Source: Halothiobacillaceae bacterium (lineage in GTDB: Bacteria > Pseudomonadota > Gammaproteobacteria > Halothiobacillales > Halothiobacillaceae). Taken from it: DNA of 50,816 bases. This document shows positions 14,087-45,365 of this stretch, piece after piece (position 1 is the first letter of the stretch; each line of letters opens with the position of its first letter). The DNA lies in the NCBI GenBank assembly GCA_016938615.1, contig JAFGUH010000265.1, positions 1 to 50,816 of the forward strand, in the 5' to 3' direction. The notes below the pieces were generated by a model, which saw only the letters and a program-made list of their open reading frames with translations, was not told the DNA's origin and made no database searches. A program made the translations under genes and the position numbers.

Positions 14087-14366
14087 GGGGACCTCTGCAC
14101 GAATCGATGGTGCCTCTGGCTCGCGGGTTTGTTCGCTTTTCTGGTGCCGGACCGAAGGCGGGCCCAAGGCAATAACTCGGGCCCGTCGAGCGACGGTAAC
14201 GATGAGTGCGGGCAAACCCGCGAGCCCGTCCGGGCGGGCCGCCAAGGACCCATCTTCGGCGTTGCCGCGTGTGCGAATGGCGCCGGGCATCCACCGCGCA
14301 CCGCGCCTTGCATCTGGACCCTTGGCGGTCCCGCTTCAGGCACTATCGACTCGTGCAGCGGTTCCC
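14087..14366. repeat. Inverted-repeat element A (280 bp)
   Basis: Noncoding element in the 474-bp orn-mgtE gap. Its ends are imperfect inverted repeats: 14087-14114 pairs with 14339-14366 at 24 of 28 positions. The core reads TCGTGCAG then GGTTCCC outward. Inside is a second inverted pair (GGCCGCCAAGG near 14238, CCTTGGCGGTC near 14320). The interior shares GCGCCTTGCATCTGG with element D and the GCCGCCAAGG block with element G. No open frame looks coding. The remaining gap sequence (13961-14086) contains a TATACT box at 14078-14083 that ends three bases before the element. Confidence 0.8.
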
Positions 14367-14434
14367 TAGGGTGTCGGCCCGGCCATCCGCCTGACACTCG
14401 CCCACTCGCCAATCCAGCCCGGTAGCGCTCAATC

Positions 14435-15871
14435 ATGGCCGAACTCACCGACGTCGACCGCCAGGACGAACTCGATTCCCTGATCCGTGAGATCCGCGAC
14501 ACCCTCGGCGATCACGATGTCCTCAAGGGCGACGACGATGGAGAGCGGGGGTCGCCCCCGATCGAGGAGCTCCTTCGTGACCCGGATCTGGGTCGGCTGG
14601 CGCGCAAGATCGAATCCCTGCACGCCGCTGACATCGCGATGTTGCTTGAGTCCCTACCCCGGGACGAACGACTGGTTCTCTGGGACCTGGTGCATTCGCA
14701 TCGTGATGGCGACGTACTCCTCGAGGTCTCCGACTCGGTGCGTGACACCCTGATCGAGGCGATGGACCGCGAGGAAATCCTCAACGTCGCCGCGACTCTC
14801 GATACCGACGAACTGGCTGACCTTGCCCCGGATCTTCCCGAGGGCATGATGCAGGACGTCTTCACCGCCCTGCCGATCGACGACCGCGAGAAACTGCGCT
14901 TCGTCATGTCCTACGCCGAGGACACCATCGGGGCGCTGATGGATTTCGACCTCGTCACCGTCCGGGGAGAGGTGACCATCGAGGTCGCCATGCGTTACCT
15001 GCGCCGGATGGACTCCCTGCCCGACCACACTGACAAACTGTTCGTGATCGACCGTGACGGTCTGTTCGAGGGGGTCATCCACCTCAAGACGCTGCTTCTC
15101 AACGATCCGGAGACGATTGTCGAGTCGGTGATGGAGACCGACGTGGTGCGCTTTCATCCGGAGGATAGCGCGCGCGACGGTGCCGATGCGTTCGAGCGCT
15201 ACGACCTGGTGAGCGCGCCGGTCGTCGACGAGGTCGACCGGCTGGTGGGACGCGTGACGATCGACGCGGTGGTCGACTTCATCCGCGAGGCGAGCGATGA
15301 GGAGCGGCTCTCGCAGGTCGGCCTCTCTGAGGAGGAGGACATCTTCGCCCCGGTGCGCAAATCCGTGCGCAACCGCGCGCCATGGCTCGCGGTAAATCTG
15401 GTGACCGCGTTGGTCGCCGCCCAGGTGATAGGGTTGTTCGAGGGATCGATCGAGAAACTGGTCGCGCTGGCTGCCCTGATGCCGATCGTGGCCGGCATGG
15501 GAGGCAACGTCGGCAACCAGACCATCACGATGATCGTCCGTGAGCTCGCCTTCCGAAAGCTCGGCGGCGGCGACATCCGCCTGCTCTACGGCAAGGAGCT
15601 CAAGGTCGCGCTGATCAACGGCGTGGTCTGGGGAGGCGTGCTCGCCCTCGTCACCTTCCTGATGTATCAGAACGCCGGCGTTTCCGGCGTGATGCTGGCG
15701 GCGGTCACCCTGAACTTCCTTAGCGCAGCGTTCTTCGGCGTCACCATCCCGATCCTGCGGACCCGGATGGGACGTGACCCGGCGCTGGGCAGTGCCGTGA
15801 TGATCACGGCGATCACCGACTCGGGCGGCTTTTTCATCTTCCTCGGGCTGGCAAGCCTGCTCCTGCTCTGA
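14435..15871 (+). CDS. mgtE: Magnesium transporter MgtE
   Basis: Mg2+ channel of the inner membrane with Mg2+-sensing cytosolic domains. The 478 residues contain an N-terminal superhelical domain (about 25-150, acidic), two CBS domains (about 155-290, including IGALMDFDLVTV), a connecting helix, and five transmembrane segments from about residue 310. The selectivity region contains the conserved GGNVGNQTITMIVREL stretch. The ribosome-binding site is weak. No M-box-like leader was recognised upstream; element A occupies most of that region instead. It is followed at 35 bp by rsgA. Confidence 0.94.
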   Translation: MAELTDVDRQDELDSLIREIRDTLGDHDVLKGDDDGERGSPPIEELLRDPDLGRLARKIESLHAADIAMLLESLPRDERLVLWDLVHSHRDGDVLLEVSDSVRDTLIEAMDREEILNVAATLDTDELADLAPDLPEGMMQDVFTALPIDDREKLRFVMSYAEDTIGALMDFDLVTVRGEVTIEVAMRYLRRMDSLPDHTDKLFVIDRDGLFEGVIHLKTLLLNDPETIVESVMETDVVRFHPEDSARDGADAFERYDLVSAPVVDEVDRLVGRVTIDAVVDFIREASDEERLSQVGLSEEEDIFAPVRKSVRNRAPWLAVNLVTALVAAQVIGLFEGSIEKLVALAALMPIVAGMGGNVGNQTITMIVRELAFRKLGGGDIRLLYGKELKVALINGVVWGGVLALVTFLMYQNAGVSGVMLAAVTLNFLSAAFFGVTIPILRTRMGRDPALGSAVMITAITDSGGFFIFLGLASLLLL

Positions 15872-15906
15872 CCCGGTGCGATGAATGACCGCGATGCGTA
15901 GTAACC

Positions 15907-16884
15907 ATGGGTAACAAGATCCGCCTGAGCAAGCAGCAACAACGCCACGTCGACCGGCGCCGGCGGGTAGATGGTCCCCCAGACGAATCGCTCCAGTCCG
16001 GCATCGTGGTGACCCACCACGGTCATGACCTGCTGATCGAGGATACGGACCACCAGCTCTTGCGTGGTCGGGCGCGTCGGACCGTCGGCCGGCTGACCAC
16101 AGGCGACCGAATCCGCTGGCGGCGCGACCCGCAGGGCCACATCGTCATCGAACAGATCGAGACGCGACGAAACCTGCTCGTCCGCCCGGACGCCTACGGC
16201 AAAAAACGGATGATGGCCGCAAACATCGACCAGGTGCTCGTGGTCACCTCGGTCCTGCCCTGGATGAATCCCGACGTGGTCGAACGCACCCTGGTCGCGG
16301 TGTTCGCCCTGCCGGCCACCCCGGTGATCGTGCTGAACAAGGTCGACCTGCTCGACGGCCTCGATTATGGTGAGCGCCATCGCATCGCATCCACGCTGGC
16401 GCTGTGGGAATCACTGGGATTCGAGGTGATCCGAACCTCGGTCAAGTCCGGCGTCGGCATCGCTGCATTGCGCGATCGGCTCCACGACCAGATCACCCTC
16501 GCTGTCGGGCTGTCGGGAGTCGGCAAGACGTCGCTCTCGCGGGAGATCACGCCGCGCGCCGAACAAGCCGCCATCGGCGAAATCTCGTCTTTCAATCGAG
16601 AGGGAACGCACACCACCCGGGCCAGCAGCCTCTACCGGTTCACCGACGGCGAGGGTGGCCTGATCGACGCCCCGGGGGTGCGTGATTTCCCGGTGGATCA
16701 CGTCCCGACGGCCGCGATCGACAGGGGCTTTCCCGAAATTCGGGCCGCCTCGGCCTACTGCCGTTTCAATGACTGCCGCCATGTGAACGAACCCGGCTGC
16801 GCGGTCCGTGCCGCCGTGACCGGGGGTGAGATACTCCAACGACGACTCGCTCAGTATCAGTCGATGCGCGAGCCGAACGACTGA
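15907..16884 (+). CDS. rsgA: Small ribosomal subunit biogenesis GTPase RsgA
   Basis: Circularly permuted GTPase that checks maturation of the 30S decoding centre. The 325 residues show an OB-fold N-domain (about 30-100), then G-motifs in permuted order: NKVD (G4), GLSGVGKTS (G1) and DAPGVRDF (G3). A C-terminal zinc-binding segment follows, CRFNDCRHVNEPGC. The basic N-terminal start (KIRLSKQQQRHVDRRRR) is typical. Lies downstream of mgtE on the same strand and converges on the HIT gene. Confidence 0.95.
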   Translation: MGNKIRLSKQQQRHVDRRRRVDGPPDESLQSGIVVTHHGHDLLIEDTDHQLLRGRARRTVGRLTTGDRIRWRRDPQGHIVIEQIETRRNLLVRPDAYGKKRMMAANIDQVLVVTSVLPWMNPDVVERTLVAVFALPATPVIVLNKVDLLDGLDYGERHRIASTLALWESLGFEVIRTSVKSGVGIAALRDRLHDQITLAVGLSGVGKTSLSREITPRAEQAAIGEISSFNREGTHTTRASSLYRFTDGEGGLIDAPGVRDFPVDHVPTAAIDRGFPEIRAASAYCRFNDCRHVNEPGCAVRAAVTGGEILQRRLAQYQSMREPND

Positions 16885-16911
16885 TGTCCGGTCGGACCGA
16901 CTCGCCAAAGC

Positions 16912-17256
16912 TCATCCCGGAGGCCACTGCATCGCCCGGCCGCCGAGAAGGTGCAAGTGCAGGTGATAGACCTCCTGGCCGCCGTCCCGGTTGCAGTTGA
17001 ACACCGTGCGATAGCCCGATTCGTCAATGCCTTCCTGCGCGGCCAACTCCCTTGCGACGACGAACAGTTCACCCACCAGCGCCGCATCGCCCGGATCGAG
17101 GTCGTTCAGGGTCGGGATCGCCTTTTTCGGGATGATCAGCAGATGCACAGGCGCCTGCGGATTGATATCGCGAAAGGCCAGCACCCGTTCATTCTCGAAG
17201 ACGATATCGGCGGGTATCTCGCGGTTGATGATTTTGCTGAAAATGGTCTCGCTCAC
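16912..17256 (-). CDS. hinT: HIT family nucleotide-binding protein (HinT-like)
   Basis: Small purine nucleoside phosphoramidase-type protein of 114 residues. It starts SETIFSKIINREIPADIVFE, and the active-site histidine triad is YHLHLHLLGG near the C-terminus. GTG is the start codon, with AGGA five bases upstream. Stands alone on the minus strand, convergent with rsgA and divergent from the RND operon. Physiological substrate unknown; the family assignment is firm, the gene symbol is by resemblance to bacterial HinT. Confidence 0.92.
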   Translation of the reverse strand: MSETIFSKIINREIPADIVFENERVLAFRDINPQAPVHLLIIPKKAIPTLNDLDPGDAALVGELFVVARELAAQEGIDESGYRTVFNCNRDGGQEVYHLHLHLLGGRAMQWPPG

Positions 17257-17346
17257 GGCTTTCCTGCCTCGAGAAATCGATGAATTCGCCTCCAGCTTAG
17301 CCTACATTCGTCGCGTCTCGGAGAATGGAGCCGGGAGCTGACGGCT

Positions 17347-17375
17347 TTGCTAGTCGCCGCATCCATTAGTATGCT
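17347..17375 (+). promoter_or_regulatory. Possible promoter of the RND operon
   Basis: TTGCTA (17347-17352) and TATGCT (17370-17375) are separated by 17 bp in the 230-bp divergent region upstream of the efflux adaptor. The boxes fit a moderate sigma-70 promoter. No operator for a TetR, MarR or LysR regulator was recognised and no regulator gene is adjacent. Confidence 0.4.
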
Positions 17376-17439
17376 ATCTTTTTCGGCAAGCGTCCTCGGC
17401 AACCCCCACACTCAAACACGCCACGTCCGACCCATGACA

Positions 17440-17458
17440 GGGCGCAACGCGCCCTTTT
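17440..17458 (+). promoter_or_regulatory. Terminator-like hairpin in the RND operon leader
   Basis: GGGCGC (17440-17445), loop AAC, GCGCCC (17449-17454), then TTTT, lying 29 bp before the adaptor ATG and downstream of the predicted promoter. It has the form of a short intrinsic terminator, so it could lower or condition expression of the operon. Stem is only six base pairs. Confidence 0.45.
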
Positions 17459-17486
17459 CCGGTGGCACACACACGGTACCGATCTC

Positions 17487-18647
17487 ATGCCTTCCAGTTT
17501 CATTCGCCCGCCCTACCAGTCGTGCCGACTTGGCTCGGCGCTGCTAGCGGCCGCCTTCCTGATCGCGCCGACGTTTGCGGCCCAGGCGCAATCGGGCGGC
17601 CAGAAGCCGCCTCCGCCCAAGGTGCCGGTCATGACGGTGGAGACCGCCGATGCGACGGTTTACAAGACCTATCCCGGACGCACTGAAGCAAATCGGCATG
17701 TCGAGGTGCGCGCCCAGGTGGATGGCATTCTGGAAAGTCGCGAGTACGTCGAGGGCTCTCGAGTCAAGAAAGGGGACCTGCTGTTCCGTATCGATGCGCG
17801 TCCCTACGAGGCGGCTGTCAGCGAGGCGAAGGCCGACCTCGCATCGGCACAGGCCACGTTGGCCGGGGCACAGCGCGACTGGCGGCGGATCAGCTCTTTG
17901 TTCGAGCGTGGCGTGGCGAGTGAAAAGCAGCGGGACGACGCCCGCTCGGCGCTGGAGACTGCGCAGGCCGGGGTCAAGGTGGCCGAAGCCCAGTTGCAAT
18001 CCGCGCAGATCGACCTCGACTACACCGCCGTGACCGCCCCCATCCCAGGGATCGCTAGCCGTCGCGCGGTCGATCCCGGCAACCTGATCGGGGTGGGCGA
18101 CCGCCTGGTCAGCATCGACGAAATCGACCCGATCCAGGTCACGCTGTCCTATCCGGTAGACGATCCGTTTGTCGATCGCCCGGCCCTCAACCCGTCGCCC
18201 GACCAGACCACGCAGGCAGAGATCGTCGACTTCAAGGGGCCCGACGGTGCGGCGATCACCGGCGAGCTCGACTATCGCTCGGCCAGCATCGAGAGCGGCA
18301 CCAACTCGATCGAGTTGCGCGGGGTGTTCGAGAATCCTGGCGACGTGCTGCGTCCCAACCGGTACGTGCGCGTGCGGATCAAGGTCGACGAGGTCACGGA
18401 CGCGGTGATCATCCCCGAGACCGCCATCGGCACCGGTGCCGAACCTAACAGCACGGTGGTCTACGTGATTGGCGAGGAGAACAAGGCCGAACAGCGGCGC
18501 GTGGAACTGGGGCCGATGAGCGAGCAGGGACGCATCATCCGCTCCGGGCTCGAGGCCGGCGACCGCCTGGTGATCGACGGCCTGCTCAAGGTGCGCGAGG
18601 GCGCCCCCGTGGATCCGCAGGAACCGGAGCAGGACGCCGGCGAGTAA
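17487..18647 (+). CDS. RND efflux periplasmic adaptor subunit (MexE/AcrA-like)
   Basis: Membrane fusion protein linking an inner-membrane RND pump to an outer-membrane channel. The 386 residues start with a signal peptide (hydrophobic LGSALLAAAFLIAPTFAAQA). Next come a barrel-sandwich/lipoyl half (about 60-95), an alpha-helical hairpin rich in Ala/Gln (about 100-170), the second lipoyl half (LDYTAVTAPIPGIASRRAVDPG), and beta-barrel and membrane-proximal domains (LRPNRYVRVRIKVDEV). There is no lipobox cysteine. The pump gene follows at 71 bp. No outer-membrane factor is encoded nearby, so a TolC-like protein elsewhere is presumed. Confidence 0.93.
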   Translation: MPSSFIRPPYQSCRLGSALLAAAFLIAPTFAAQAQSGGQKPPPPKVPVMTVETADATVYKTYPGRTEANRHVEVRAQVDGILESREYVEGSRVKKGDLLFRIDARPYEAAVSEAKADLASAQATLAGAQRDWRRISSLFERGVASEKQRDDARSALETAQAGVKVAEAQLQSAQIDLDYTAVTAPIPGIASRRAVDPGNLIGVGDRLVSIDEIDPIQVTLSYPVDDPFVDRPALNPSPDQTTQAEIVDFKGPDGAAITGELDYRSASIESGTNSIELRGVFENPGDVLRPNRYVRVRIKVDEVTDAVIIPETAIGTGAEPNSTVVYVIGEENKAEQRRVELGPMSEQGRIIRSGLEAGDRLVIDGLLKVREGAPVDPQEPEQDAGE

Positions 18648-18718
18648 CCCGCGCCCTGAATCCGCCCCGTTCCTACCCGACCGAGACGCCCCGCTGATCC
18701 GGGCACCGGAGACCATCG

Positions 18719-21700
18719 ATGTTTTCCAAGTTCTTCATTGACCGACCGATCTTCTCCACCGTCCTGGCGATCGTGATCATGATTGCCGGCGGGGCCGCCT
18801 TCACGGGCCTGCCCGTCGAGCAGTATCCGGAGATCGTGCCCCCCGAGGTCGAGGTCCAGGCTACCTACGCCGGGGCCGACGCCGGCACGCTGGCCGAGTC
18901 GGTGGCCGCGCCGCTCGAACAGGCGATCAACGGCGTCGACGACATGCTCTACATGACCTCGGGCAGCTCGGACGCCGGCACCATGAATCTCTCGGTGACC
19001 TTCGCCACCGGCACCGATCCCGACCAGGCGACCATCGACGTCAACAACCGCGTGCAGCGCGCCCTCCCCCAACTGCCACAGGAGGTGCGCGACCAGGGCG
19101 TGGTAGTGAACAAGAAAAGCAGTGCGCTGCTGATGGTCATCACCCTGATCTCGGAGAACGAGCAGTTCGACACCAAGTTTCTCTCGAACTACGGCCTGAT
19201 CAACATCCTCGACTCGCTCAAGCGGGTGCCCGGCATCGGCGACGCGCGCCTGTTCGGGGCGCAAGACTACTCGATTCGGGTCTGGTTCGATCCGGCGAAA
19301 CTGGCGCATTTCAACCTGACGCAAGACGACATCGCCAAGGCGATCCGCGAGCAGAACGCCCAGTTCGCGGCCGGCAAGTTCAACGACTCGCCCAACAAGG
19401 ACGGCGAGTCGTTCACCTACACCATCACCTCGCAGGGGCGATTCTCCGACGTTGAGGACTTTCGCAACATTATCCTCGCCTCCTCGGAAGACGGCGGCAC
19501 ACTGCGCCTGAGCGATGTCGCCGAAGTCGAACTGGGATCGCAACGCTACGGCTTCAACGCGACCTATAACGGGGCCCCGACGGTACCGATGGGCATCTAT
19601 CTGGCTCCGGGTGCGAACGCACTGGAGACCGTGGCCCAGGTGCGCGAGCGGATGAAGGAGCTTTCTGAACGGTTCCCCGGGGACATGGATTACGAGATCC
19701 CGCTCGATACCACGGATTTCGTGCGTATCTCGATCAAGGAGGTGCTCAAGACCTTCGCCGAGGCCCTGGTGCTGGTGGTCCTGGTCATCTTCGTTTTTCT
19801 GCAGAAGCCACGCGCGACCATCGTGCCGTTGATCGCGATCCCGGTGGCCCTGATCGGAGCGCTGGCGGGCTTGTTCCTCAGTGGAATGTCGATCAACTTG
19901 CTGACCCTGTTCGGTTTCGTGCTGGCGATCGGGATCGTGGTGGACGACGCGATCATCGTGATCGAGAACGTCGAGCGGGTCATGCGCGAGGAGGGATTGA
20001 AGGCAAGGGACGCGTCGATCAAGGCGATGGAGCAGGTGACCGGGCCGATCGTGGCGACCACGCTGGTCCTGCTGGCCGTGTTCGTGCCCGTCGCCTTCAT
20101 CCCGGGACTCGCCGGCGAGATGTATCGGCAATTCGCTGTTGCCCTGTCGATCTCCGTGGTGCTCTCGGGCGTGGTCGCGCTCACCCTGACCCCATCGATG
20201 ACCGCCCTGCTCCTCAAGAACCATGAGGAAAAGGAGCCGGTGCTGCCGTTCCGCCTGTTCAACCGTGGCTTCGAGGCCTTCCGCAACGGCTACATGAAGC
20301 TGGTGCACTTCTTCCTGGTCGCTTGGCCGATCGGGCTGCTGATTTTCGCCGGGGTAGTGATCGCGGCGATCGTGATGTTCCGCAGCACGCCCACGGGCCT
20401 GGTGCCCGAAGAGGATCCGGGGTACTTCATTTCCACGCTGAACCTGGACCCGGCGGCGAGTCTCTCACGCACCAGCGAGGTGCGCGACGAGTACTCGCGT
20501 CTCATACGGCAGAACCCGGACGTGCAGATGCAAGTCGCCTTCGCCGGCTTCGATCTGCTTGCCGGGACCCAGCGTCCGTACAAGGGCGTTGCCTTCACGC
20601 GCCTGAAGGACTGGTCTGAACGTCCCGCCGATGACCAGAGCGTCCAGGCGACGGTCAAGAAGGCAATGGCCGCGGGCAGCCAGATCGAGGAAGGCTTCGT
20701 CATGGCCTTCGTGCCGCCTCCCATCCGGGGCATGTCGACGACCGGGGGATTCGAGGCCTACCTGCAGCAGCGCGGGTCAGCGGACGTCAAGGCACTTGCC
20801 GAGGCTGCCAACGCGCTGGTGGCGGCCGCGAACAAACGACCGGAGTTGGCCGGCGTGCGGACCACCTTCGTCGACAGCACGCCCCAGTTCCGGATGACCG
20901 TTGACCGGGAGCAGGCCTACGCCCTCGACGTCCCGGTCGCCGCCGTGTTCCGCACCATGCAGGGCACTTTCGGTACGCGCTATGTCAACGACTTCACCCT
21001 GTTCGGCCGAAACTTCCAGGTAAACATGGCCGCCCACGCCCCGTTCCGGGCAGACCCACAGGACCTCGAGAATGTCTTCGTGCGCAGCGGCGATGAACAG
21101 CTGGTGCCGATCAGCTCCGTGGTGACCCTGACCCGAACCACCGGCGCCGACGTGATTGATCGCTTCAACATCTTCCCCGCCGCCAAGATCATGGGCAGCG
21201 CGGCAGAGGGCTATTCGTCAGGCCAGGCGTTGACCGCCATGCAGGAGGTGATCGACCAGGCCCTAGGCGGTGGCGATTACACCCTGGGCTGGGTCGGCTC
21301 GGCTTTCCAGGAGCTCTCCAGCGGCGCGGCCGGAGCGATCGCCTTCCTCCTGGGCGTGATCATGGTCTTCCTTATCCTCGCAGCCCAGTACGAGCGCTGG
21401 TCGCTGCCGTTCGCCGTGATCACCGCCGTGCCATTCGCGGTGCTCGGTGCACTGATCGCGATCTGGATGCGCGGACTCAACATCGATATATACTTCCAGG
21501 TCGGCATGCTGGTGTTGATCGCCATGTCAGCGAAGAACGCGATCCTCGTGGTCGAATTCGCCTCGAAGATGCACCTCAAGGAAGGCCTAACGATCAAGGA
21601 GGCGGCGCTCAAGGCCGCGCGCATCCGTTTCCGGCCGGTGGTGATGACGTCGATGGCATTCATCCTGGGCGTGCTGCCCCTCGCGCTGGCCACCGGGGCC

Positions 21701-24051: not shown

Positions 24052-24056
24052 CTGAC

Positions 24057-24728: not shown

Positions 24729-24786
24729 GAGATGAGCCTATGCGTTGCAGGGCATGTTCGATGGGAAAAAGTGCGCCCGGTTCCCA

Positions 24787-24858
24787 AGGGAATCTATGCA
24801 CGAGTTGATCCGGCTCAAGGCGCATTTGATCGGTATGGCATCCGTGCAGAGTTTCCCC
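24787..24858. repeat. Inverted-repeat element B (72 bp, minimal form)
   Basis: The shortest member of the element family, in the lolA-ftsK gap. The ends are inverted: 24787-24803 and 24842-24858 pair at about 13 of 17 positions, with the outward core CGTGCAGAGTTTCCCC. The right arm is preceded by CTCAAGGCGCATTTGATCGG, which matches in inverted orientation the start of element D, whose complement reads CTCAAGGCGCGCTTCAGCGA. It has no coding potential. A perfect 14-bp tandem duplication (GAGTTTCCCCGGCC) begins at its right end. Confidence 0.65.
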
Positions 24859-24876: not shown

Positions 24877-24892
24877 GATGACTTGTCGGCAA

Positions 24893-29130: not shown

Positions 29131-29307
29131 AGGGACGCTCTGGACGAACGCCACATCGCCCTGCTCAATCCGCCAGGCCACTGCGTGTTCGGCGTTGCGT
29201 TGCCTTGAGGTGGCTACACCGACGACACGGCCACAAGCTCGTCGTGCATCCATCCGAGCCCCTGGCAATCCACACCTTGACACTAACCGTTCGTGCAGGG
29301 CTTACCT
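29131..29307. repeat. Inverted-repeat element E (177 bp)
   Basis: Sits in the petC-sspA gap (287 bp), between the petC stop and the terminator. Ends: 29131-29152 and 29286-29307 are inverted repeats at about 16 of 22 positions, with the outward core GTTCGTGCAGGGCTTACCT. The interior block GCGTTGCCTTGAGGTGGCTA resembles ACGCTGTCTTGACGTGGCCA in element D. No open frame looks coding. Confidence 0.65.
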
Positions 29308-32052: not shown

Positions 32053-32092
32053 ACAAGCGGGCTTAATACCCTGGACTCGAGGTTTTATTAGT

Positions 32093-32235
32093 AAACCTCT
32101 GCACGAGTGCCTCACCCCTGGTGCAAGGCGCGGTCTACTGTGAATGGCAGGCGCTCCTTGGCTCAGGTCACAACGACGCAAACGGCCGCTTGGCTGCCCG
32201 GCAGCGACGCGGTCAATTCGCGATAGAGGCTCCCC
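32093..32235. repeat. Inverted-repeat element F (about 143 bp, degenerate)
   Basis: The left end is a clear family terminus (AAACCTCTGCACGAGTGCC, 32093-32111). The right end near 32211-32235 is only partly recognisable (TAGAGGCTCCCC). Read on the minus strand, GACCGCGCCTTGCA is followed by the terminus, matching ACCGCGCCTTGCA near the right end of element A, so F lies in the opposite orientation to A. The element ends about 31 bp from the Nif3-like stop. Right boundary uncertain. Confidence 0.5.
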
Positions 32236-33149: not shown

Positions 33150-34421
33150 ATGCCCAGCCCTCGTTCGGCCCGCCTGCTGTCGCGCCGCTTCCTGCCTTAT
33201 TTCTTCACCCAGGCGCTGGGGGCGTTCAACGATAACGCCTTCCGGTTTTCGGTGATGTTCCTGATCACCTACCGAATCAGCGAGTCGGGCAGCGGCGAGA
33301 TCGACGTACTGATGAATGTTGCCGCCGGGCTGTTCATCCTGCCGGGACTGATTTTCTCTCCCATGGCCGGGCACTGGACCGATCGGCTCGATCAGGCGCG
33401 CCTGGCTCGGTGGTTAAAATGGACCGAACTCGGACTCATGCTCGTGGCCGCCGTGGCGTTCTGGTGGCAAAGCGTCCCATTGCTGATGTTGTTGGTCTTT
33501 CTGATGGGGACGCAATCGGCCTGGTTCGGTCCCTTGAAGTACGCGATCGTCCCGCGTCACCTGCCTGCCGACATGTTGATGCGCGCCAACGGCTGGGTCA
33601 CTGCGAGCACCTTCGCCGCGATCCTGCTGGGCACGCTGACGGGTGGGCTGCTCGCGGCCACCGGGGAACGCGCCACCCTGATCGCAAGCGCGCTCGTCAT
33701 CGGCGTGGCCGTCGCCGGCGTGGTGGCCTCGCGTCTCATCCCGGCCGCGCCGCCACCGGGGCGCCTGCCGAACCATGTCGGCCCGCTCGAAAGCTGGGCC
33801 GCTACCTGGCGCCTGTTGCTTGCGCAGCCAAGCAGCCTGCGCCAGTCGATGTGGCTGATCAGCTGGTTCTGGTTCGTGGGCGCGGGATATCTCACGCAGT
33901 TTCCCCGCTTTGCCGAGAACGTGCTCGACCTGCCGGCCGACGGGGCCACTGGCCTGCTCGCGTTGTTCGCCCTGAGCATCGGCGCCGGAGGCCTGGCCGT
34001 GGGCTACTTAGGCGGGAGTCGTCCCCCGCGGATACTGGCGCCGTTCATGGCGCTGGGCGTGGCACTGATCGCCATCGACTGGTATCGGGTCGCCTGTGCC
34101 CCGAATCCGGCGCTTTGGCGGATCGGAATCGACGTGGCATTGACCGGTCTTTGCGCCGGTGGCCTGGTCGTGCCGCTCTACAGCCACCTGCAACGCGCCT
34201 CCCGGCCCGCTCAACGAGCCCGGCTGATCGCGGCACTCAACGTGCAGAATGCGCTGGCGATGGTGGTGAGCAGCGGGCTGGGCATCCTGTTGTTTGCCGT
34301 CGTCGCGATCGACCTGCCGACCTTCTTCCTGCTGTTCGGCGGCAGCGGGCTGTTGGTGGCCGCCACCACCTGGTGGCGCTGGGGCGGGATATGGCCGACC
34401 CATCGGACCCAAAGCCGCTAA
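33150..34421 (+). CDS. MFS transporter (LplT-like)
   Basis: Inner-membrane permease of 423 residues with about 10-12 hydrophobic segments. The opening RFLPYFFTQALGAFNDNAFRF and the later MGTQSAWFGPLKYAIVP are typical of the MFS branch that includes the lysophospholipid flippase LplT and the permease halves fused to acyltransferases (Aas-type). No acyltransferase is fused or adjacent here, so the substrate is an inference. ATG 33150 was chosen at the conserved start; GGAAGGG is 12 bases upstream, and alternative ATGs lie at 33117 and 33090. The stop directly abuts element C. Confidence 0.85.
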   Translation: MPSPRSARLLSRRFLPYFFTQALGAFNDNAFRFSVMFLITYRISESGSGEIDVLMNVAAGLFILPGLIFSPMAGHWTDRLDQARLARWLKWTELGLMLVAAVAFWWQSVPLLMLLVFLMGTQSAWFGPLKYAIVPRHLPADMLMRANGWVTASTFAAILLGTLTGGLLAATGERATLIASALVIGVAVAGVVASRLIPAAPPPGRLPNHVGPLESWAATWRLLLAQPSSLRQSMWLISWFWFVGAGYLTQFPRFAENVLDLPADGATGLLALFALSIGAGGLAVGYLGGSRPPRILAPFMALGVALIAIDWYRVACAPNPALWRIGIDVALTGLCAGGLVVPLYSHLQRASRPAQRARLIAALNVQNALAMVVSSGLGILLFAVVAIDLPTFFLLFGGSGLLVAATTWWRWGGIWPTHRTQSR

Positions 34422-34515
34422 GGGCATTTCTGCACGAACCCGATACCGCGCTGCGCGCCTTGATCAGGAACGACTCGCCAAGCCTTCGGTAGTATCGGAT
34501 CCGTACAGAGATTGC
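34422..34515. repeat. Inverted-repeat element C (about 94 bp)
   Basis: Begins on the base after the MFS stop codon. The ends 34422-34445 and 34493-34516 are inverted repeats at about 17 of 24 positions (outward core TATCGGATCCGTACAGAG). The interior GCGCCTTGATCAGGAACGAC and CGCCAAGCCTTC match the right third of element D almost exactly. It separates two convergent genes (MFS and imuB). Confidence 0.65.
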
Positions 34516-36068: not shown

Positions 36069-36087
36069 GACGGCTCCGTGATGTGAA

Positions 36088-36107: not shown

Positions 36108-36140
36108 TACTGCGCCCTCGTTTCCACCACCGCCAGCCCT

Positions 36141-36764: not shown

Positions 36765-36779
36765 CGGAGACCAGCGGCC

Positions 36780-37604: not shown

Positions 37605-37612
37605 ACGGGAAT

Positions 37613-38395: not shown

Positions 38396-38501
38396 GGCAG
38401 GCAACCTCATTTCGCGGAGTCGAATATCCCGGGGCGTGCTCGAACCGGGTTTCGATAAATCAGGATTTCAATGAACAGGGGAAACAATGACAACACCCTG
38501 G

Positions 38502-38776
38502 CTAGGGAAACTCGGCACGAATGCCATATCGCTGAAGCGCGCCTTGAGCCGGGCATCTGCTGCGTTGTCGTCCTTGGAAAGAGAATAACTCGTCCGCGGT
38601 AGACGAACGCCTTGCATCTGCCCGGCGCAAGACGCGCCCTGCAGCTTGGCGAGCCCGCCCCTGCTCCGCGTTACGCTGTCTTGACGTGGCCACCGGCACC
38701 CCGGCGTTCAAGCGCCTTGATCACGAACGACTCGCCCAGCCTTCAGTGGCATGGCAGTCGTGCAGAGGTTCCCTGG
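38502..38776. repeat. Inverted-repeat element D (275 bp)
   Basis: Fills most of the 435-bp gap between the M48 gene and the HDOD gene. Ends 38502-38527 and 38751-38776 are inverted repeats at 22 of 26 positions, with outward core TCGTGCAGAGGTTCCCTGG. The interior contains blocks found in A (CGCCTTGCATCTG), in C (CGCCTTGATCA, GAACGACTCGCC) and in E (CTTGACGTGGCCA), plus the palindromic CTCGTCCGCGGTAGACGA near 38590. No credible coding frame. The flanks (38396-38501, 38777-38830) show no recognised feature. Confidence 0.8.
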
Positions 38777-38830
38777 GAGACCAGGATCGTGCACGCGGGT
38801 TCCTGACCGTCACGCCATACCGCGGTAAAA

Positions 38831-39640
38831 CTACCCGCCTAAAGCGCGGATTGCCTCGTCAAGCTCGTCGTCGATCAGGCTCGACTCCAGATCTACGCCC
38901 AGCTTCTGGGCAGCCATGATCGGCCGGTCGTCTGGCGTTCGGTCGATGCCGCGCGCCTGAGCGATCGCGCAAATGACCACGTCGCTGTAGTTCGGGTCAC
39001 CATCATGCTGGTAACCGAGATCGCCGCAGTGCTCGATCACCTCGGCGAACATGTCGGGAAAATCCCAGGCCTTGACGATGTTTCCGCCCAACCTCGATTG
39101 CAGGTTCTCGACCAGCTCGGTAAGCACCGCGGGCGCCTCCAGCAGCTTGGGGATGTCCTCGGCAACCACGATAACCGGAATGCCGCCCACGCTATGCAGT
39201 AGCCCGGCCAGCAATGCCTGGTCGGGATCCAGCCGTGTATAACGCCTGGCGATGTGATTGGACAGTGCCGCGACCTGCGTCGCGAAGGCCCAGTGATCAC
39301 GCATCACCCGCTTGATGGTCGCCGTTTCGGCCCGAAACAGTTGCTGGGTGGAGAGCGACACGATCAGCTGGCTCACCGTGCGCATCCCTAGCCGCGAAAC
39401 GATCTGGGTGAGGTTGTCGATGTGTTGCGCACCCCGGTACAGCGGGCTGTTCGCCACCTGGATCAGGCGCGCGGCGATAGCCGGATCCTGCGAGATCACG
39501 TCCACCAGGTCACTGGCGGAGCTGTTGGGGTCGTCGATGATCCGACGGGCCCGCAGCGCAACGTCCGGAAGGACCGGCAAGGCGATGCCCTTGTCGCGGA
39601 TCTTGTTGATGATCGCCTGTTCGAGAGCCGGATTGGCCAC
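38831..39640 (-). CDS. HDOD domain-containing protein
   Basis: Soluble 269-residue protein consisting essentially of one HDOD domain (about 18-215), a degenerate HD-superfamily fold found in signalling proteins. Landmarks are LPVLPDVALRARRIIDDPNSSASDLVDVISQDPAI, ANSPLYRG and LLAGLLHSVGGIPVI. The HD metal ligands are replaced (LHSVG), so no phosphodiesterase activity is expected. Start is GTG 39640 behind AGGGAGA. It lies 52 bp downstream of ettA on the same strand. Role unknown; such proteins often affect motility, virulence or stress output. Confidence 0.9.
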   Translation of the reverse strand: MANPALEQAIINKIRDKGIALPVLPDVALRARRIIDDPNSSASDLVDVISQDPAIAARLIQVANSPLYRGAQHIDNLTQIVSRLGMRTVSQLIVSLSTQQLFRAETATIKRVMRDHWAFATQVAALSNHIARRYTRLDPDQALLAGLLHSVGGIPVIVVAEDIPKLLEAPAVLTELVENLQSRLGGNIVKAWDFPDMFAEVIEHCGDLGYQHDGDPNYSDVVICAIAQARGIDRTPDDRPIMAAQKLGVDLESSLIDDELDEAIRALGG

Positions 39641-39692
39641 GTTTTCTTCTCCCTGAAACCGCTGCCAGACAAGGGCGACAGCGGCCTCGATA

Positions 39693-41360
39693 TCAGTGGG
39701 CGAGCCGCGCGTATTTCACGCGCTTGGGCAGGTCGGCGTCGTCGCCAAGCCGCTTCTTCCGGTCAGCCTCGTATTCCTGGAAATTGCCCTCGAAGAACAT
39801 CACCGAGCCGTCGTCCTCGAAGGCGAGGATGTGCGTGGCGATCCGGTCGAGGAACCAGCGATCGTGCGAGATCACCAGGGCCGAACCGGGAAAATCCAGC
39901 AAAGCGGTTTCCAGCGCCCGCAAGGTCTCGACGTCGAGATCGTTGGTCGGCTCGTCGAGTAGGAGCACGTTGCCACCGGACTTCAACAACTTGGCGAGAT
40001 GCACCCGGTTGCGCTCACCGCCCGACAGATCCTTCATGAACTTCTGCTGATCCTGGCCCTTGAAGTTGAACCGGCCCAGGTAGGCGCGCGACGGCATTTC
40101 GAACTTGCCGACCGTGATGAAATCGTGGCCGTCGGAGATCTCCTGCCAGACCGTCTTGGTATCGTCAATGTCTTCGCGCGACTGCGAGACGTAGGCCAGC
40201 TCGACGCTCTCACCGATCTCGATGTTGCCGTCATCCGGCTGCTCCTCGCCGATCAGCATGCGGAACAGGGTCGACTTGCCGACGCCGTTCGGGCCGATGA
40301 TGCCGACGATCCCGCCCTTGGGCACCGAGAACGACAGCCCCTGGTAGAGCTCGCGGTCGCCGAAGGCCTTGCTGAGATTCTCCGCCTCGATGACCTTGTC
40401 GCCCAGGCGCGGACCGGGCGGGATGTAGATCTCGTTGGTCTCCGAGCGCTTCTGGTATTCCTCGGACTGGAGTTCCTCGAAGCGCTTCATGCGCGCCTTG
40501 GACTTGGCCTGACGGCCCTTGGGGTTCTGGCGCACCCACTCGAGTTCCTCCTTCATGGCCTTCTGGTGCGCGGACTCGGCCTTTTCCTCCTGCTTGAGGC
40601 GCTTTTCCTTCGCCTCCAGCCACTGCGAGTAATTGCCTTCGAACGGGATGCCCTGACCTCGGTCGAGCTCGAGGATCCAGCCGGCGACATTGTCGAGGAA
40701 ATAGCGATCGTGGGTGACCGCAACCACGGTGCCGGAGAATTGCTGCAGGAACCGCTCCAGCCATGCAACGGATTCGGCATCGAGGTGGTTGGTCGGCTCG
40801 TCGAGGATCAGCATGTCCGGGTTGGACAGCAGTAGGCGGCACAGCGCCACGCGGCGACGCTCACCACCGGAGAGATTGGTAACGTCGGCATCCCAGGGCG
40901 GCAGGCGCAGCGCGTCGGCGGCCACCTCGAGCTTGCGGTCGAGATCCCAGCCGCCGCCGGCCTCGATCTGGTCCTGCAGCTTGCCCTGCTCTTCCATCAG
41001 CGCCTCGAAATCGGCGTCCGGGTCGGCGAACTGCTCGGAAACCTTGTTGAAGCGCTCAAGTAATTCGGCCATCTCGCCGACACCATCCATGACGTTGCCG
41101 CGCACGTCCTTGTCCGGGTCGAGGTCCGGTTCCTGCTTGAGGTAACCGATCTTGATGCCCGGTTGCGGGCGCGCCTCGCCGATGATGTCGGTGTCGACGC
41201 CGGCCATGATGCGCAGCAGGGTCGACTTGCCGGCACCGTTGTAACCGAGCACGCCGATCTTCGCACCGGGAAAGAAGTTGAGGTTGATGTCCTTGAGGAT
41301 GTGCTTTTTCGGCGGGACGACCTTGCCCACGCCGTTCATGGTAAAGATGTATTGAGCCAT
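39693..41360 (-). CDS. ettA: Energy-dependent translational throttle protein EttA
   Basis: ABC-F ATPase that binds the ribosomal E site and gates entry into elongation according to energy charge. The 555 residues equal E. coli EttA. It has two ABC modules: GYNGAGKST with [16 protein letters not shown], and GPNGVGKST with [15 protein letters not shown]. The interdomain PtIM linker ([19 protein letters not shown]) and the arm region of the first domain are present. ATG 41360 matches the family start MAQYIFTM; the frame extends nine codons further without a better start. A weak ribosome-binding site precedes it. Confidence 0.96.
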
Positions 41361-41498
41361 AGGGTCCGAGACTTTGTGTTGTTGCAAACGAAATGAAGCG
41401 GCACTATCCCGCAGGGACGGCCCGGCGGGCCAGGATCCCCCTCAGTGGGTTTCCCCTGCCCGCAGCGCACTTCCCCGGAATAGCGGAAGCGAATCTGC

Positions 41499-41558
41499 CC
41501 AGAACTTTGCCCAGAACTTTGCCCAGGATTTTTCTCAGGATTTTGCCCAGGGTTTTCT
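41499..41558. repeat. 12-bp tandem repeat array, five units
   Basis: Five consecutive 12-bp units in the 301-bp divergent gap between ettA and the VWA gene. Two are identical (CCAGAACTTTGC) and three are diverged (CCAGGATTTTTC, TCAGGATTTTGC, CCAGGGTTTTCT). The array is much more T-rich than its surroundings. It would encode a four-residue repeat if the VWA frame extended this far, but that extension is not protein-like. The rest of the gap shows no recognised feature. Confidence 0.85.
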
Positions 41559-41661
41559 CAGGTTAGCCGCCGCGTTTGATCACAAGGATACCAGCACTGT
41601 GCCGCGACTTGATGCCCCGCGCCCCACTCAGCCGCTCGCCCGCTCATCCAGGCGGTGGTCC

Positions 41662-43476
41662 GTGCCTTGCGGATACCCATGTGCCCGTCATCTGGCGATC
41701 CCGCGGCTCGCTAGCCTGCTGGCATGGGCCGTCCTGCTGACCTTGCTGGCCATGCCGGCGCCTGCCGCCGAACGACCCGAGCTTCACGTGTTGATCGATG
41801 TCTCGGGAAGCATGAAGAAAACCGACCCGGAAAACCTGCGCGAACCGGCCTTGCGCCTGCTCGGCGATCTGGTCCCCGAGGAGAGCCGGGTGCGGCTCGA
41901 CCTGTTCGGCAGCCGGATCACCTCGGTGCTGCCGGCCTCCGAGGCCACGCCCGAGACCAAGCGGGCGATGCGACAGGCCGCCGCCCGCGTCCGTTCCGAC
42001 GAGCCGTACACCGACATCCCGGCCGCCCTGGACGCCGCGAACGGTGACTGGGGCGAGGAGACGGCGCGCAACGTCATCCTGCTCTCCGACGGCAAGGTCG
42101 ACATCTCCCCGGACGAGGCCGTCAACGCTCGCGCTACCGCGCGCCTGCGCGCTGAGGTGATCCCGGCGCTGATCGATGCCGAGGTCCAGGTGCACACCGT
42201 CGCCCTCTCCGAGGGTGCGGACCAGGCCATCCTCACCGAGATCGCCGAACGCACCGGTGGATTGGCACTGAGCGCGCGCAGCAACGAGGACCTGCAACGC
42301 GTGTTTCTCGCCCTGTTCGAGGCGACCGCTCCCCGTACGGGCGTGCCGTTGGTGGATAACCGTTTTCGTGTCGATGGGAGCATCAGCGAGCTTACGCTGG
42401 TCGTGTTCCGGGCCGAGGACGCCGACCCCACCCGCATCCAGATCCCCGACGGTGGGGAGATCGATATCGAGATCGCCGGCACCCTCGCGGACTGGCGTTG
42501 GGACGACAGCGCCGGTCGCGACCTGATTACCGTGCGCGATCCACCAGCGGGCAGCTGGCGCATCCTTGCAGCCGAAGACCCCGACAACCGGGCGCTGGTC
42601 ATCACCGACCTCAAGCTCGCCATGTCGGGGGTGCCCAGCCGGATATTCCCGGGCGAGGTGGTCGACGGCACCCTTGTTCTGACCAATCATGGTGAGCCGA
42701 TCGTCGAGCCACGGCTGACCCGGGACATTGAGGCCAATGTGGCCGCCCATGATCCTCAAGACACGGTGATCGAGGCGCTCGAACTCAACGATATCGGTGC
42801 CGACCCGGACGTGCTCGGTGGCGACAGCCGCTACGATTTCCGACTGCGCCTCGATGGCGATACGGGCATCTACACCCTAGAGGGCCGGGCAAGCGGCCCA
42901 ACCTTCGAACGAGTCATTAGAAGGAAGATCGCACTGGCCCGGCTGGCGCCTTTCGAAGCGCGCGTGGTGCGTCCGCACCTCGCCGCTTATGACGCCGACA
43001 GCGGTGAGGAAACCTCCGAGCCGAACGCCCAGTTGATCATCGAGCAGGACGTCGCCCTGCTCGACCCTCGCGACTCGCGGTTGGTTGCACGAGTCGAATG
43101 CCGCAACGACGAGCCGACGGGTGTAGAGGTCCCGCTCGATCGGGCCAGGAACCGCGTCGCACTCCCGCCGACCGGGGCGGGCGACTGCCGCGTCGTCGGG
43201 GAGGTCATCGGCACGACTCGGGATGGGCGCGAGGTGAGCCTGCCGCTCGACGCGTCGATCCCGGCGCCCCCGGTCCCGAAGCTGGTCGACGCTCCGGCCA
43301 CCGACCAGCCGGATGACGAGGCAAAGCCGCGTGAACCAGGTGAACCGGGCGGTCCCACGGTGACGGCCATCCTGATCGGTCTGGCCGGGCTCGCCGCTCT
43401 GACAGTGTTCGGCCTCATCTGGGGGGCGCTTGTCCGACGACGCCGTAAACAACTGATCGAGGCGGCGCGGCATTGA
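41662..43476 (+). CDS. VWA domain-containing membrane-anchored protein
   Basis: Protein of about 604 residues with a signal peptide (LASLLAWAVLLTLLAMPAPAAE), a von Willebrand A domain (about 38-225) with an intact MIDAS (Asp46-x-Ser48-x-Ser50 in VLIDVSGSMKK; LLSDGKVD), and beta-rich central regions. A C-terminal transmembrane helix (AILIGLAGLAALTVFGLIWG) is followed by a basic tail (RRRRK). The topology is therefore periplasmic with one anchor. The start is uncertain: GTG 41662 behind AGGCGG is preferred; GTG 41599 or ATG 41374 would add low-complexity sequence. It is followed at 44 bp by a coiled-coil membrane protein. Ligand unknown. Confidence 0.8.
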   Translation: MPCGYPCARHLAIPRLASLLAWAVLLTLLAMPAPAAERPELHVLIDVSGSMKKTDPENLREPALRLLGDLVPEESRVRLDLFGSRITSVLPASEATPETKRAMRQAAARVRSDEPYTDIPAALDAANGDWGEETARNVILLSDGKVDISPDEAVNARATARLRAEVIPALIDAEVQVHTVALSEGADQAILTEIAERTGGLALSARSNEDLQRVFLALFEATAPRTGVPLVDNRFRVDGSISELTLVVFRAEDADPTRIQIPDGGEIDIEIAGTLADWRWDDSAGRDLITVRDPPAGSWRILAAEDPDNRALVITDLKLAMSGVPSRIFPGEVVDGTLVLTNHGEPIVEPRLTRDIEANVAAHDPQDTVIEALELNDIGADPDVLGGDSRYDFRLRLDGDTGIYTLEGRASGPTFERVIRRKIALARLAPFEARVVRPHLAAYDADSGEETSEPNAQLIIEQDVALLDPRDSRLVARVECRNDEPTGVEVPLDRARNRVALPPTGAGDCRVVGEVIGTTRDGREVSLPLDASIPAPPVPKLVDAPATDQPDDEAKPREPGEPGGPTVTAILIGLAGLAALTVFGLIWGALVRRRRKQLIEAARH

Positions 43477-43520
43477 CCCCGCGCCCTTACGCCTAACCGA
43501 TTCATCACGGGAACCGACCG

Positions 43521-45128
43521 ATGTTCGATTACCTTCTTAGCCCAGGCTGGGCCATCATCGCCACCGAATTGCTGGCAGGCTTTGTGGTCATCTCCCTGGT
43601 CCTCGCCGCCCTCGTCTGGCATGGACAACGCCGTCACACGACAGCGGCCGAGCGCCTGCTCGACGATCGGGACCCGATCAGGCGGGCCACCGAGGAAATG
43701 GTCGATCGACAGTTCCAGCGGGCCGGGCCGAGGATCCAGCTCGACGACGAACAACGCGTGGAATACACCGAACGCGGCGTCGACGCGATCGAAGCGATGG
43801 TTGCCCCTTGGCTTGAACCCGGGCGTCACGACCTGTCGGCGGTGGCCCGCCGTTTTCTGCAGGTGCGCCAGGCCGATCTCGAGCAGATGCTCAACCTGGC
43901 GTGTGCCGAAATCGAGCGACAAGCCAAGGAGGACACCCGCCTGACCGAACTCGAGGCAGGTATCGCCGATCTGCGCGAACAACGCGACCGCCAGGCCAAG
44001 CAACTCAACGAGTCGATCGAGACCGTCAACGTCATGGTTCGCGAGTACGGCCGTAAGTTTGACTACGACAAGGAACCGCACGTCGCCACGGTGCTCAAGG
44101 CGATCGTCATGATCGAGGAAATGGATGCCGGCGCGGACTGCGAGACCGCGAAGAAACGGGCCGACGACGTCTTCAGTGAAGACCTGGTCGCGTCGACCGC
44201 CCCAGTCCGCGAACCGGCTGCATCGTCACGCGAGCCAACAGGGCCAGCAGGGAGCGGAGGTCATTCCGGGGAAGCCGCCGAGGATGCGCCCCCGGCGCCC
44301 CCGGGTCGTGAACCGTCACTCGATCAGGCAAGCGGCCGGGAACCCACTACCGAGGCCCAGCCCGGAGACCAGGTGGCTGGGGCTTTGGATCGAGTTGACG
44401 CGCCCCCTGAGTCCGTGGCGACCGACATCCCGACGGCGGCCTCCCCCAAGGCCCCCGCCGAGGCATCCGTCGTTGGCGACGAGCGCCCTGGGGATGTCGG
44501 CCCTGGGACCAGGCCAGCCGCGAAAACGGCTGCATCCCCCGCCGACCCAACCAACGGGCGCTCCTCATCGGAGAAAGACGCTTCCGACACCGACGTCGAC
44601 GACATCGATGCATTGATCGCCGAGGCACGGGAAGCCACGTCTTCCCAACCAGTCTCTCGCCCCAGCGCGCCCCCGATCGAGGATTCACCGGTTGGACAAC
44701 CCCCGGCCGGGAACGCCGCCGACAATGATGTCGACCGCGCTGCTGCCGACCGCCCGGCAGTCACCCCGGCAGTCACCCCGGCAGTCACCCCGGCAGATCG
44801 AACGGACCCTCGACAGGCGGAGGGGCCTGACGAGGCCGACGGCGAGAAACGAACAGACGGAGCAACCGGCGCAGACACGCCGACGCGTTTGGCTACCGAT
44901 GCGGCGACCTCCCAAGATCCTTCCGCTGACCGGTCGCCCGGGGCAAGCGAAACACGCCGTGAAACCGACGAAGAGGCGGAAGAGAACGGCGTGATCGATC
45001 TCGACGAGGTCGAGATTCCCGACGATGACCAGGACACGCAGGAGACATCGGCCGAGACGTTCGACCTCGACGACATCGACGCGTTGCTCGACGCCGAGAT
45101 CGCCAAGAAACACGGCAAGCCCGACTAA
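43521..45128 (+). CDS. Membrane-anchored coiled-coil protein with acidic low-complexity tail
   Basis: Unrecognised 535-residue protein. It has an N-terminal transmembrane helix (about 10-33), a helical region rich in Glu/Gln/Arg with probable coiled coil (about 110-175, LTELEAGIADLREQRDRQAKQL), then about 330 residues of disordered Pro/Ala/Asp/Glu/Ser sequence. That tail includes PAVT repeats near 413. Two copies of a DDIDAL motif occur, VDDIDALIAEAREA near 361 and LDDIDALLDAEIAKK at the C-terminus. The motif resembles the EIDALL sequence by which FliM binds CheY, so it may be a docking peptide; that is inference. Probably cotranscribed with the VWA gene. Confidence 0.75.
   Translation: MFDYLLSPGWAIIATELLAGFVVISLVLAALVWHGQRRHTTAAERLLDDRDPIRRATEEMVDRQFQRAGPRIQLDDEQRVEYTERGVDAIEAMVAPWLEPGRHDLSAVARRFLQVRQADLEQMLNLACAEIERQAKEDTRLTELEAGIADLREQRDRQAKQLNESIETVNVMVREYGRKFDYDKEPHVATVLKAIVMIEEMDAGADCETAKKRADDVFSEDLVASTAPVREPAASSREPTGPAGSGGHSGEAAEDAPPAPPGREPSLDQASGREPTTEAQPGDQVAGALDRVDAPPESVATDIPTAASPKAPAEASVVGDERPGDVGPGTRPAAKTAASPADPTNGRSSSEKDASDTDVDDIDALIAEAREATSSQPVSRPSAPPIEDSPVGQPPAGNAADNDVDRAAADRPAVTPAVTPAVTPADRTDPRQAEGPDEADGEKRTDGATGADTPTRLATDAATSQDPSADRSPGASETRRETDEEAEENGVIDLDEVEIPDDDQDTQETSAETFDLDDIDALLDAEIAKKHGKPD
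44754..44789 (+). repeat. 12-bp in-frame tandem repeat (PAVT x3)
   Basis: CCGGCAGTCACC occurs three times without mismatch, plus a partial fourth unit, inside the low-complexity tail of the coiled-coil membrane protein. Because the unit is 12 bp, copy-number changes would keep the reading frame. Confidence 0.9.
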
Positions 45129-45365
45129 GGAAGATCTGCACGATCCGGCAGCATCGCTGTCTCGCCGCCTGGTCCGCAGTCTCGATGATGGATCGGAACA
45201 CTGGCCCATCGCCCGTCGAGAGTTCGCGTTGCAGCTGCGGGCAAGCCAGTGGGGCGCCGGACCGGACAGGCCGCCAAGGCCCCATCGGCGCAATTGCCGC
45301 GCTAGAAAAGCGCCAAGGCCTCGTCACGGCGGACAGCATCATGTCTCTGGGCCCTTGGCGTGCCC
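45129..45365. repeat. Element G, family member with one recognisable end
   Basis: Begins directly after the stop codon of the coiled-coil protein. The left terminus GGAAGATCTGCACGATCCGG matches the family end. The interior repeats blocks of element A in the same order: GGCCGCCAAGGCCCCATC near 45272, TTGCCGCG near 45295, and GGGCCCTTGGCGTGCC near 45350. The first and last form an internal inverted pair. No right terminal repeat was found; a 7-bp tandem array follows instead. This and the array make up the 346-bp gap before the peroxiredoxin gene. Confidence 0.55.

Follow-up and report, generated by a model that had tools for sequence, protein, structure and literature searches.

Intergenic repeats of Guyparkeria resemble IS5-type miniature inverted-repeat elements and share a paired hairpin body with elements that carry other ends

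What are the inverted repeats that recur between the genes of a 50,816-nucleotide contig of a Halothiobacillaceae bacterium (JAFGUH010000265.1), how would they move, and does their interior matter? The contig (hereafter, the window, analyzed at its full length; C158 in our set) is part of a metagenome-assembled genome of Guyparkeria that comprises 2,395,148 bases in 267 contigs. A preliminary description, made from the letters of the window alone, listed seven apparently non-autonomous elements, regarded them as similar either to miniature inverted-repeat transposable elements (MITEs) or to repetitive extragenic palindromic (REP) sequences, and named what would support a mobile family: tens of genomic copies, target-site duplications, sites that are empty in relatives, and an insertion sequence (IS) with the same ends. 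All seven repeats were seen again at the positions originally given. The family and its shared interior blocks were recognized correctly in that description, the blocks being whole or partial hairpin modules that occur in varying combinations, whereas the conserved fold formed by two such modules was missed. Full-length copies (median, 266 bp) consist of two inverted hairpin modules of ~97 nt between inverted ends of ~30 bp. Judging by their ends and insertion sites, the repeats are IS5-type MITEs, and the same kind of body is found in other genera behind different ends.

Results and discussion

Ends, copy number and target sites of the Guyparkeria elements

The inverted tips of the Guyparkeria elements read GGAACCTCTGCACGAAT; the element proper spans GG to CC, and the CTAG-like tetramer outside it represents the duplicated target. 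The 17-mer end TCGTGCAGAGGTTCCCT, when allowed up to 3 mismatches, occurs 11 times in the window compared to 0.22 expected, a count reached in none of 100 shuffles, and 264 times (135 + 129) in the whole genome compared to 5 (4 + 1) for the reversed pattern, which corresponds, very roughly, to 130 elements. Neither of the outcomes that would have refuted the family according to the preliminary description, a lack of further genomic copies or end similarity no better than in shuffled sequence, was thus observed. Given that several contigs (L003, L004, L007, L012 and L018) begin in or beside an element, the repeats probably broke the assembly, so that the copy number is underestimated. An exact two-ended pattern with 0 mismatches proved too strict, yielding a single element, from this same genome, among 57 genomes.

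The comparison set consisted of 11 Guyparkeria genomes, some of them 64-87% complete. In searches with a 15-mer end and 2 mismatches, the ten other genomes contained 1 to 164 ends each versus 2 to 16 for the reversed control; the excess is clear in seven (G001, G002, G003, G005, G007, G009 and G010), and the counts are not or hardly above the control in G004 (64% complete), G006 and G008. Outside the genus but within the family, G021 shows the clearest excess (37 ends vs 5), followed by smaller ones in G019, G015, G022 and G024, and the counts in the remaining family genomes are close to the control. The exact 17-base end is present in 90 stretches of named genomes. Two copies, L252 and L254, of G003 and G001, carry the outer tip GGAAGGTCTGCACGAAT in place of GGAACC..., a variant that also occurs in some autonomous IS5-family elements. 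A 143-bp element of G047 (L055, 1501-1643) has ends AGAACCTGTGCACGA related to the Guyparkeria tip, a different, AT-rich interior, and no match to the module model described below.

We collected 119 two-ended elements from Guyparkeria genome stretches, 70 of them from the genome of the window, with both flanks available for 118. The 4-base flanks are identical in 34 of these 118 elements, compared to 7.8 on average and at most 17 after shuffling; other duplication lengths were unremarkable, other offsets gave at most 12 agreements, and both flanks read YTAR. A 4-bp YTAR target duplication is the rule for IS5-family elements. Neighboring elements can have one duplication in common, as in the arrangement TTAT-element-TTAT-element-TTAT on contig C174. 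Abutting element pairs with a single common target tetramer were also seen at L004 235-268, L002 1501-1534 and L213 10157-10694.

For three window sites, relatives were compared in which both flanks could be found. The element is absent from 8 of the 9 relatives at site 32093 (in G001, a copy occupies another position within that space), from all 9 at site 34422, and from 7 of the 8 at site 38502 (in G003, there is again a copy at another position within the space); the flanks of the empty sites are ~70-90% identical, so that these comparisons report presence or absence rather than the exact target bases. Thus, the expectations for a MITE-like family were borne out for the ends, which far exceed tens, for the 4-bp duplications and for the presence and absence of elements between species.

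IS5 affinity and the missing partner

Several autonomous elements of the IS5 family have GGAA..TCTG and part of the following bases in common with the Guyparkeria tips. Among these are L276 (tip GGAAGGTCTGCACAAC, duplication CTAG), L033 (GGAACCTCTGAACAAT, CTAA) and L177 (GGAAGGTCTGATCAAT, TTAA), all from other gammaproteobacterial genera; the transposases of L033 and L177 match the NCBIfam model transpos_IS5_4 at 345 and 298 bits, respectively. Because the tips and the 4-bp YTAR duplications are like those of autonomous IS5-family elements, and orthologous sites are empty in relatives, we assign the Guyparkeria repeats, on sequence grounds, to IS5-type MITEs.

The window was said to contain no transposase with such ends, and the same applies to the whole genome, which has 0 matches to PF01609 and 0 to PF05598. 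PF01609 was detected in 1 of the 11 Guyparkeria genomes (L062), where no such ends lie within 3 mismatches, and PF05598 in 7 of 27 family genomes, including one Guyparkeria (L178), with no such ends within 5 mismatches there; the nearest end at the PF05598 loci of the family is GGAACCTCTGATTGAAT, in G021. A search of the 11 Guyparkeria genomes for the L276 transposase, at 1e-30, gave no match. No acceptable end pair more than 600 bp apart was found in 80 of the 90 stretches with the exact 17-base end, and the other ten yielded only two weak pairs, with at least one end bearing six mismatches and with unequal tetramers. Searches of all 90 stretches with two IS5-family transposases by tblastn gave no match, nor was there a transposase remnant in the interior of the elements. 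An IS with the same ends, as hoped for in the preliminary description, was therefore not found in the genus or the family, although partly matching IS5-type ends exist elsewhere. The enzyme that moved the elements would be an IS5-family transposase that is no longer present in these genomes.

A paired hairpin module with a constant internal loop

The module is a hairpin of ~97 nt composed of a 16-pair outer stem, an internal loop CAAGGCG/CAACGC, an inner stem and an apical hairpin. RNAalifold, when applied to a mixed alignment, gave the outer stem only, and the structure was then derived manually from the pairing of columns. Two modules in plus-minus order were identified in 54 of 77 elements of 255-295 bp, and a single module in 8 of 9 elements of 163-180 bp. 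Matches in both orientations had suggested that internal inversion might be common, but only 1 of the 77 elements is '--' and 1 is '++', so that inversion is the exception. The distance from the left end to the start of the motif is 52-55 bp in 59 two-module elements, and their total length is nearly constant, with a median of 266 bp, the middle half at 266-268 bp, and extremes of 258 and 346 bp.

Stems of different module types differ in sequence yet stay complementary, and the loop motif is constant. Across 39 diverse Guyparkeria modules, 94.3% of the cells pair, and the covariation is 0.693, compared to 0.229 in shuffled and at most 0.155 in slid alignments. Two window elements are predicted to fold better than all 200 shuffles (z of -5.9 as RNA for one and -6.6 as DNA for the other), with the paired ends closing over the two arms. 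According to these predictions, the body together with the paired ends can form a three-armed fold whose arms hardly vary in length.

Within the genus, most of the stem departures break pairs: 68 of 83, 87 of 150 and 146 of 206 in the three common module types, and 1 of 7 in a rare fourth. Compensatory changes numbered 5, 8, 31 and 0, respectively, compared to 2.6, 3.7, 11.1 and 0.0 under independence. These counts suggest decay of single copies, with the fold preserved only in multiplying lineages. Selection on propagating copies, the simplest account of decay combined with a maintained fold, would imply that it is the element, and not the host site, that benefits from the fold.

The module outside Guyparkeria

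The covariance model R1, which was built from the modules of one genus and calibrated only briefly, detected the module at E 1e-5 in 88 of 369 gammaproteobacterial genomes, four of them Guyparkeria, and in 45 of 398 genomes of a phylum-wide sample, 22 from the same class and 23 from other classes (a few genomes are in both samples). At most 10 or 11 candidates were scored per genome, and hence copy numbers obtained with R1 are lower bounds. Among 43 loci outside Guyparkeria that were searched with R1, 31 contained a plus-minus pair, and one more (L370) contained it weakly. Ends could be traced in 29 of these 31 elements, from 23 genomes; they are inverted, lie at a similar distance, and fall into clearly different groups. 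For the remaining two loci, both from Thiomicrorhabdus, this method yielded no end; judging by their 17-base ends, they are of the Guyparkeria type. The 29 elements have a median length of 269 bp, with 25 of them at 265-274 bp and the others at 249, 277, 284 and 289 bp.

The end types outside Guyparkeria include TACTAAGACAAACG, TAGTGT and TAGTAC. IS5-like ends were found in L306, L308, L331 and L348; TAGTGT ends in L309, L310, L311, L325, L326, L343, L360 and L367; TAGTAC ends in L316, L319, L320 and L321; ends identical or close to ACTAAGACAAACG in L315, L323 and L330; and GGCCACTCGCCC ends in L318 and L352, which have similar flanks and are perhaps one insertion. The ends of some further elements fit none of these groups. 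Judging from the few copies compared, several end groups look like TA duplications, with exceptions. Recent movement of such elements is indicated by the complete genome G148, in which three copies are 98.6-99.6% identical to a fourth.

Conceivably, what R1 picked up in other genera is a set of GC-rich hairpins that have no relationship to the module and resemble it in layout by coincidence, a concern raised by the single-genus origin and short calibration of R1 and by the ranking of the hits with R1 itself. This explanation is already disfavored and appears very improbable. On 63 control loci (237 kb), R1 detected 0 modules, with the best match at E 0.65, whereas most loci of other genera possess a second, opposite module and nearly all of the paired ones have inverted ends, of which R1 has no knowledge. 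Moreover, the association holds in the reverse direction: among 16 elements chosen by the 17-base end alone, 15 contain the module with an E of at most 1e-4, whereas L117, the remaining one, scores 0.1. These 16 are two-ended, at least 150 bp long and come from outside Guyparkeria and Halothiobacillus (Acidovorax, Diaphorobacter, Thiomicrorhabdus, Nitrosomonas and others); they were drawn from 53 sources, L126, L127 and L157 not being among them, and L121 was left out because its nearest end pair is only 120 bp apart.

Covariation persists outside the genus, where 95.8% of the cells pair in 77 modules, each of the 16 outer pairs varies on both sides, and the covariation is 0.892 compared to 0.200 in shuffled alignments. 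The frequency of the commonest base is 0.89-1.0 in CAAGGCG and 0.79-1.0 in CAACGC, and only 0.36-0.87 in the outer stem. Free change of the stem sequences would also be expected if each arm acted as a template for the other in replication or repair, which would preserve complementarity of the stems in the absence of selection and leave the fold functionless; the inverted module in one window copy is the kind of product that hairpin-templated repair could yield. Such self-correction, however, should erase unpaired internal loops, and the loops are the most conserved positions (with a bias from hit selection); furthermore, most of the stem changes within Guyparkeria were left uncorrected. We therefore consider self-correction unlikely, although it is the strongest of the rival explanations.

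As for a partner of the outside elements, an IS630-type transposase (PF13358) was considered and rejected: matches were found in 3 of 12 module-bearing genomes, and both ends matched those of local elements in 0 of 10 loci. The single matching end in L393 belongs to an element beside a transposase fragment, not to the transposase. Plasmid searches with two elements gave no match.

Gene context

Gene context was derived with a simple gene caller of our own, which is unvalidated, and the background gaps include the elements themselves. The 100 elements analyzed comprise 93 that lie between genes, 2 within genes and 5 at locus edges. The contexts are tandem in 56 cases, convergent in 18 and divergent in 19, much as in all gaps of at least 20 bp (446, 148 and 141, respectively). 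For 15 of 92 flanking gene 3' ends, the distance to the element is 0, whereas 0 of 94 gene starts lie within 4 bases; two further cases at distance 0, outside that count, are the window genes ending at 34421 and 45128. Elements lie directly at gene 3' ends because the target can contain TAA or TAG: the gene could stay intact after an insertion at its stop codon.

These observations bear on the alternative that the module is a functional RNA or a binding site for a host protein, which benefits the host or regulates the neighboring genes, with the MITEs as mere carriers. Strong covariation combined with fixed loop motifs does look like structured RNA, and a 2024 review (PMC10969869) mentions stable MITE transcripts as well as suggested terminators or riboswitches. 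The gene context, however, resembles that of all gaps, the copies appear to decay within the genus, the sites are empty in most relatives, and no Rfam family was matched at the gathering score. Specifically, the Rfam scan of the window returned a tRNA only and nothing for the repeats, and none of 14 loci from other genera had a match at that score. The best prokaryotic match in those loci, M23 RNA, was set aside because it covers half a module and is below the threshold (27.9 bits vs 41.2). A host-serving module thus seems improbable, and more so than self-correction.

Mobility and the role of the fold

For the mobility of the Guyparkeria elements, the likeliest explanation, to which we assign a probability of roughly 60%, is that they are IS5-type MITEs moved in trans, with the fold kept in the lineages that multiply. 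An IS5-family DDE transposase acting in trans would recognize the tips GGAA(CC or GG)TCTGCACGAAT and insert the element into YTAR sites, producing the 4-bp duplication. The two inverted modules and the paired ends would make the three-armed fold, behind several kinds of ends, and compensatory change, both among module types and from genus to genus, would maintain the fold. In a single-stranded element, such as at a replication fork, the arms could fold out and bring the two ends together; help in transposition would be the likeliest role of the fold.

Several observations weigh against this interpretation. Exact duplications flank only the minority of elements counted above, and no autonomous partner with the exact Guyparkeria ends was found in the genus or the family. 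The decay count is ungapped, with indels counted as broken pairs, and only modules that keep the motif entered it. The modules from outside the genus were aligned to, and mostly picked by, R1, a model that favors pairing and the loop motif.

More tentatively, the elements of all these genera might form a group defined by the fold: a three-armed body of ~269 bp, with near-fixed arms and a fixed loop motif, in which the tips change and transposases of unrelated families are borrowed, IS5-type ones with 4-bp duplications and others with, apparently, TA duplications. The fold would then promote movement, perhaps from single-stranded DNA at replication forks. We regard this broader possibility as less probable than not, although more probable than any of the rival explanations.

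Elements in the window

The end motif is present on both sides of five of the seven window copies, as previously described: those at 14087, 24787, 29131 and 38502 were recovered by the search with up to 3 mismatches, and the right side of the copy at 34422 can be recognized by eye only. The copy at 45129 has no right end, and that of the copy at 32093 is badly decayed. Three of the seven (14088, 24789 and 38506) pass the stricter two-ended criterion used for the duplication counts. An eighth copy was sought in the window by the end motif and by R1, and none was found. The orientation of the first module of the 38506 element (Table 1) is a sign that whole hairpin modules can flip. Apart from the elements, a 12-bp unit CCCGGCAGTCAC is tandemly repeated at 44753-44796, near the end of the gene ending at 45128; short GGCGTCA tandem repeats occupy 45366-45395, directly after the truncated right side of the 45129 element; and a tRNA gene at 50744-50816 runs past the contig end.

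Table 1. Repeat elements of the window and the hairpin modules within them
Feature	Position	Strand	Remarks
Full-length element, 278 bp, both ends	14088..14365		Left flank GCTG, right flank CTAG (decayed duplication)
Hairpin module of the 14088 element	14237..14332	-	R1, 83 bits; other module of the element unmatched
Short derivative, 68 bp, both ends, no module	24789..24856		End search, R1 scan
Decayed derivative of one-module size	29131..29307		3 mismatches per end; no R1 match
Decayed element	32090..32235		Left end recognizable, right very degenerate; partial module 32117-32185, 23.3 bits, E 0.021
Short derivative, 94 bp, part of one module kept	34422..34515		Starts right after the stop codon of the gene ending at 34421
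Full-length element, 267 bp	38506..38772		Flanks CTAG and CTGG
First module of the 38506 element, inverted relative to the usual order	38540..38636	-	R1, 79.8 bits
Second module of the 38506 element	38645..38741	-	R1, 63.4 bits
Element truncated on the right	45129..45365		Left tetramer CTAA; starts right after the stop codon of the gene ending at 45128
Module of the 45129 element	45269..45365	-	R1, 32.5 bits, E 0.00014

Relationship to known elements and implications

REP sequences are short palindromes (about 20-40 nt) without transposon ends or target duplications. Of the two options considered in the preliminary description, the MITE is hence the one that fits, and the REP-like one does so less well, given full copies of ~266 bp with transposon ends and duplications. 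The REP/BIME/REPIN elements with their RAYT transposases, as generally understood, are similarly intergenic, numerous and built of paired inverted hairpins; the Guyparkeria elements differ in the length of their two-module copies, inverted ends and 4-bp duplications. The closest known relatives are the IS5 family (transpos_IS5_4) and the MITEs derived from it, which have the same GGAA..TCTG.. tips and 4-bp YTAR duplications; the Guyparkeria repeats are distinguished by the lack of a transposase gene, by an interior of two structured modules, and by an exact tip seen in no autonomous element found.

Other small bacterial elements are described in several publications. The RU-1 (ERIC), RU-2 and RU-3 repeats of enterobacteria are mobile, intergenic and MITE-like, with lengths of 103-168 bp (PMC2759123), and the Guyparkeria elements differ from them in size. 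For the QMITEs of Coxiella, the QMITE2 transcript is predicted to fold stably, and its direct repeats are 7-9 bp, unlike the 4-bp duplication here (PMC10969869); the same review covers stable MITE folds in general. TIMEs, derived from Tn3, are another group of bacterial MITEs (PMC4133298). The available part of the Guyparkeria pangenome paper (PMC9032823) contains no mention of transposition, insertion or mobile elements. We found no description of such a shared body in the literature searched, with ISfinder and most subscription papers outside the search; given this limited reach, some elements of this kind may already have been named within single genera.

The usual view of MITEs is that they are remnants of one IS and that their interior has no meaning. 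In the elements described here, it is the interior that is constant and the ends that vary. If the fold-defined interpretation is true, some bacterial MITEs may use any transposase at hand and depend on DNA folding, and how MITEs outlive their parent IS would become a testable question. The covariance model could also serve to annotate many unnamed intergenic repeats.

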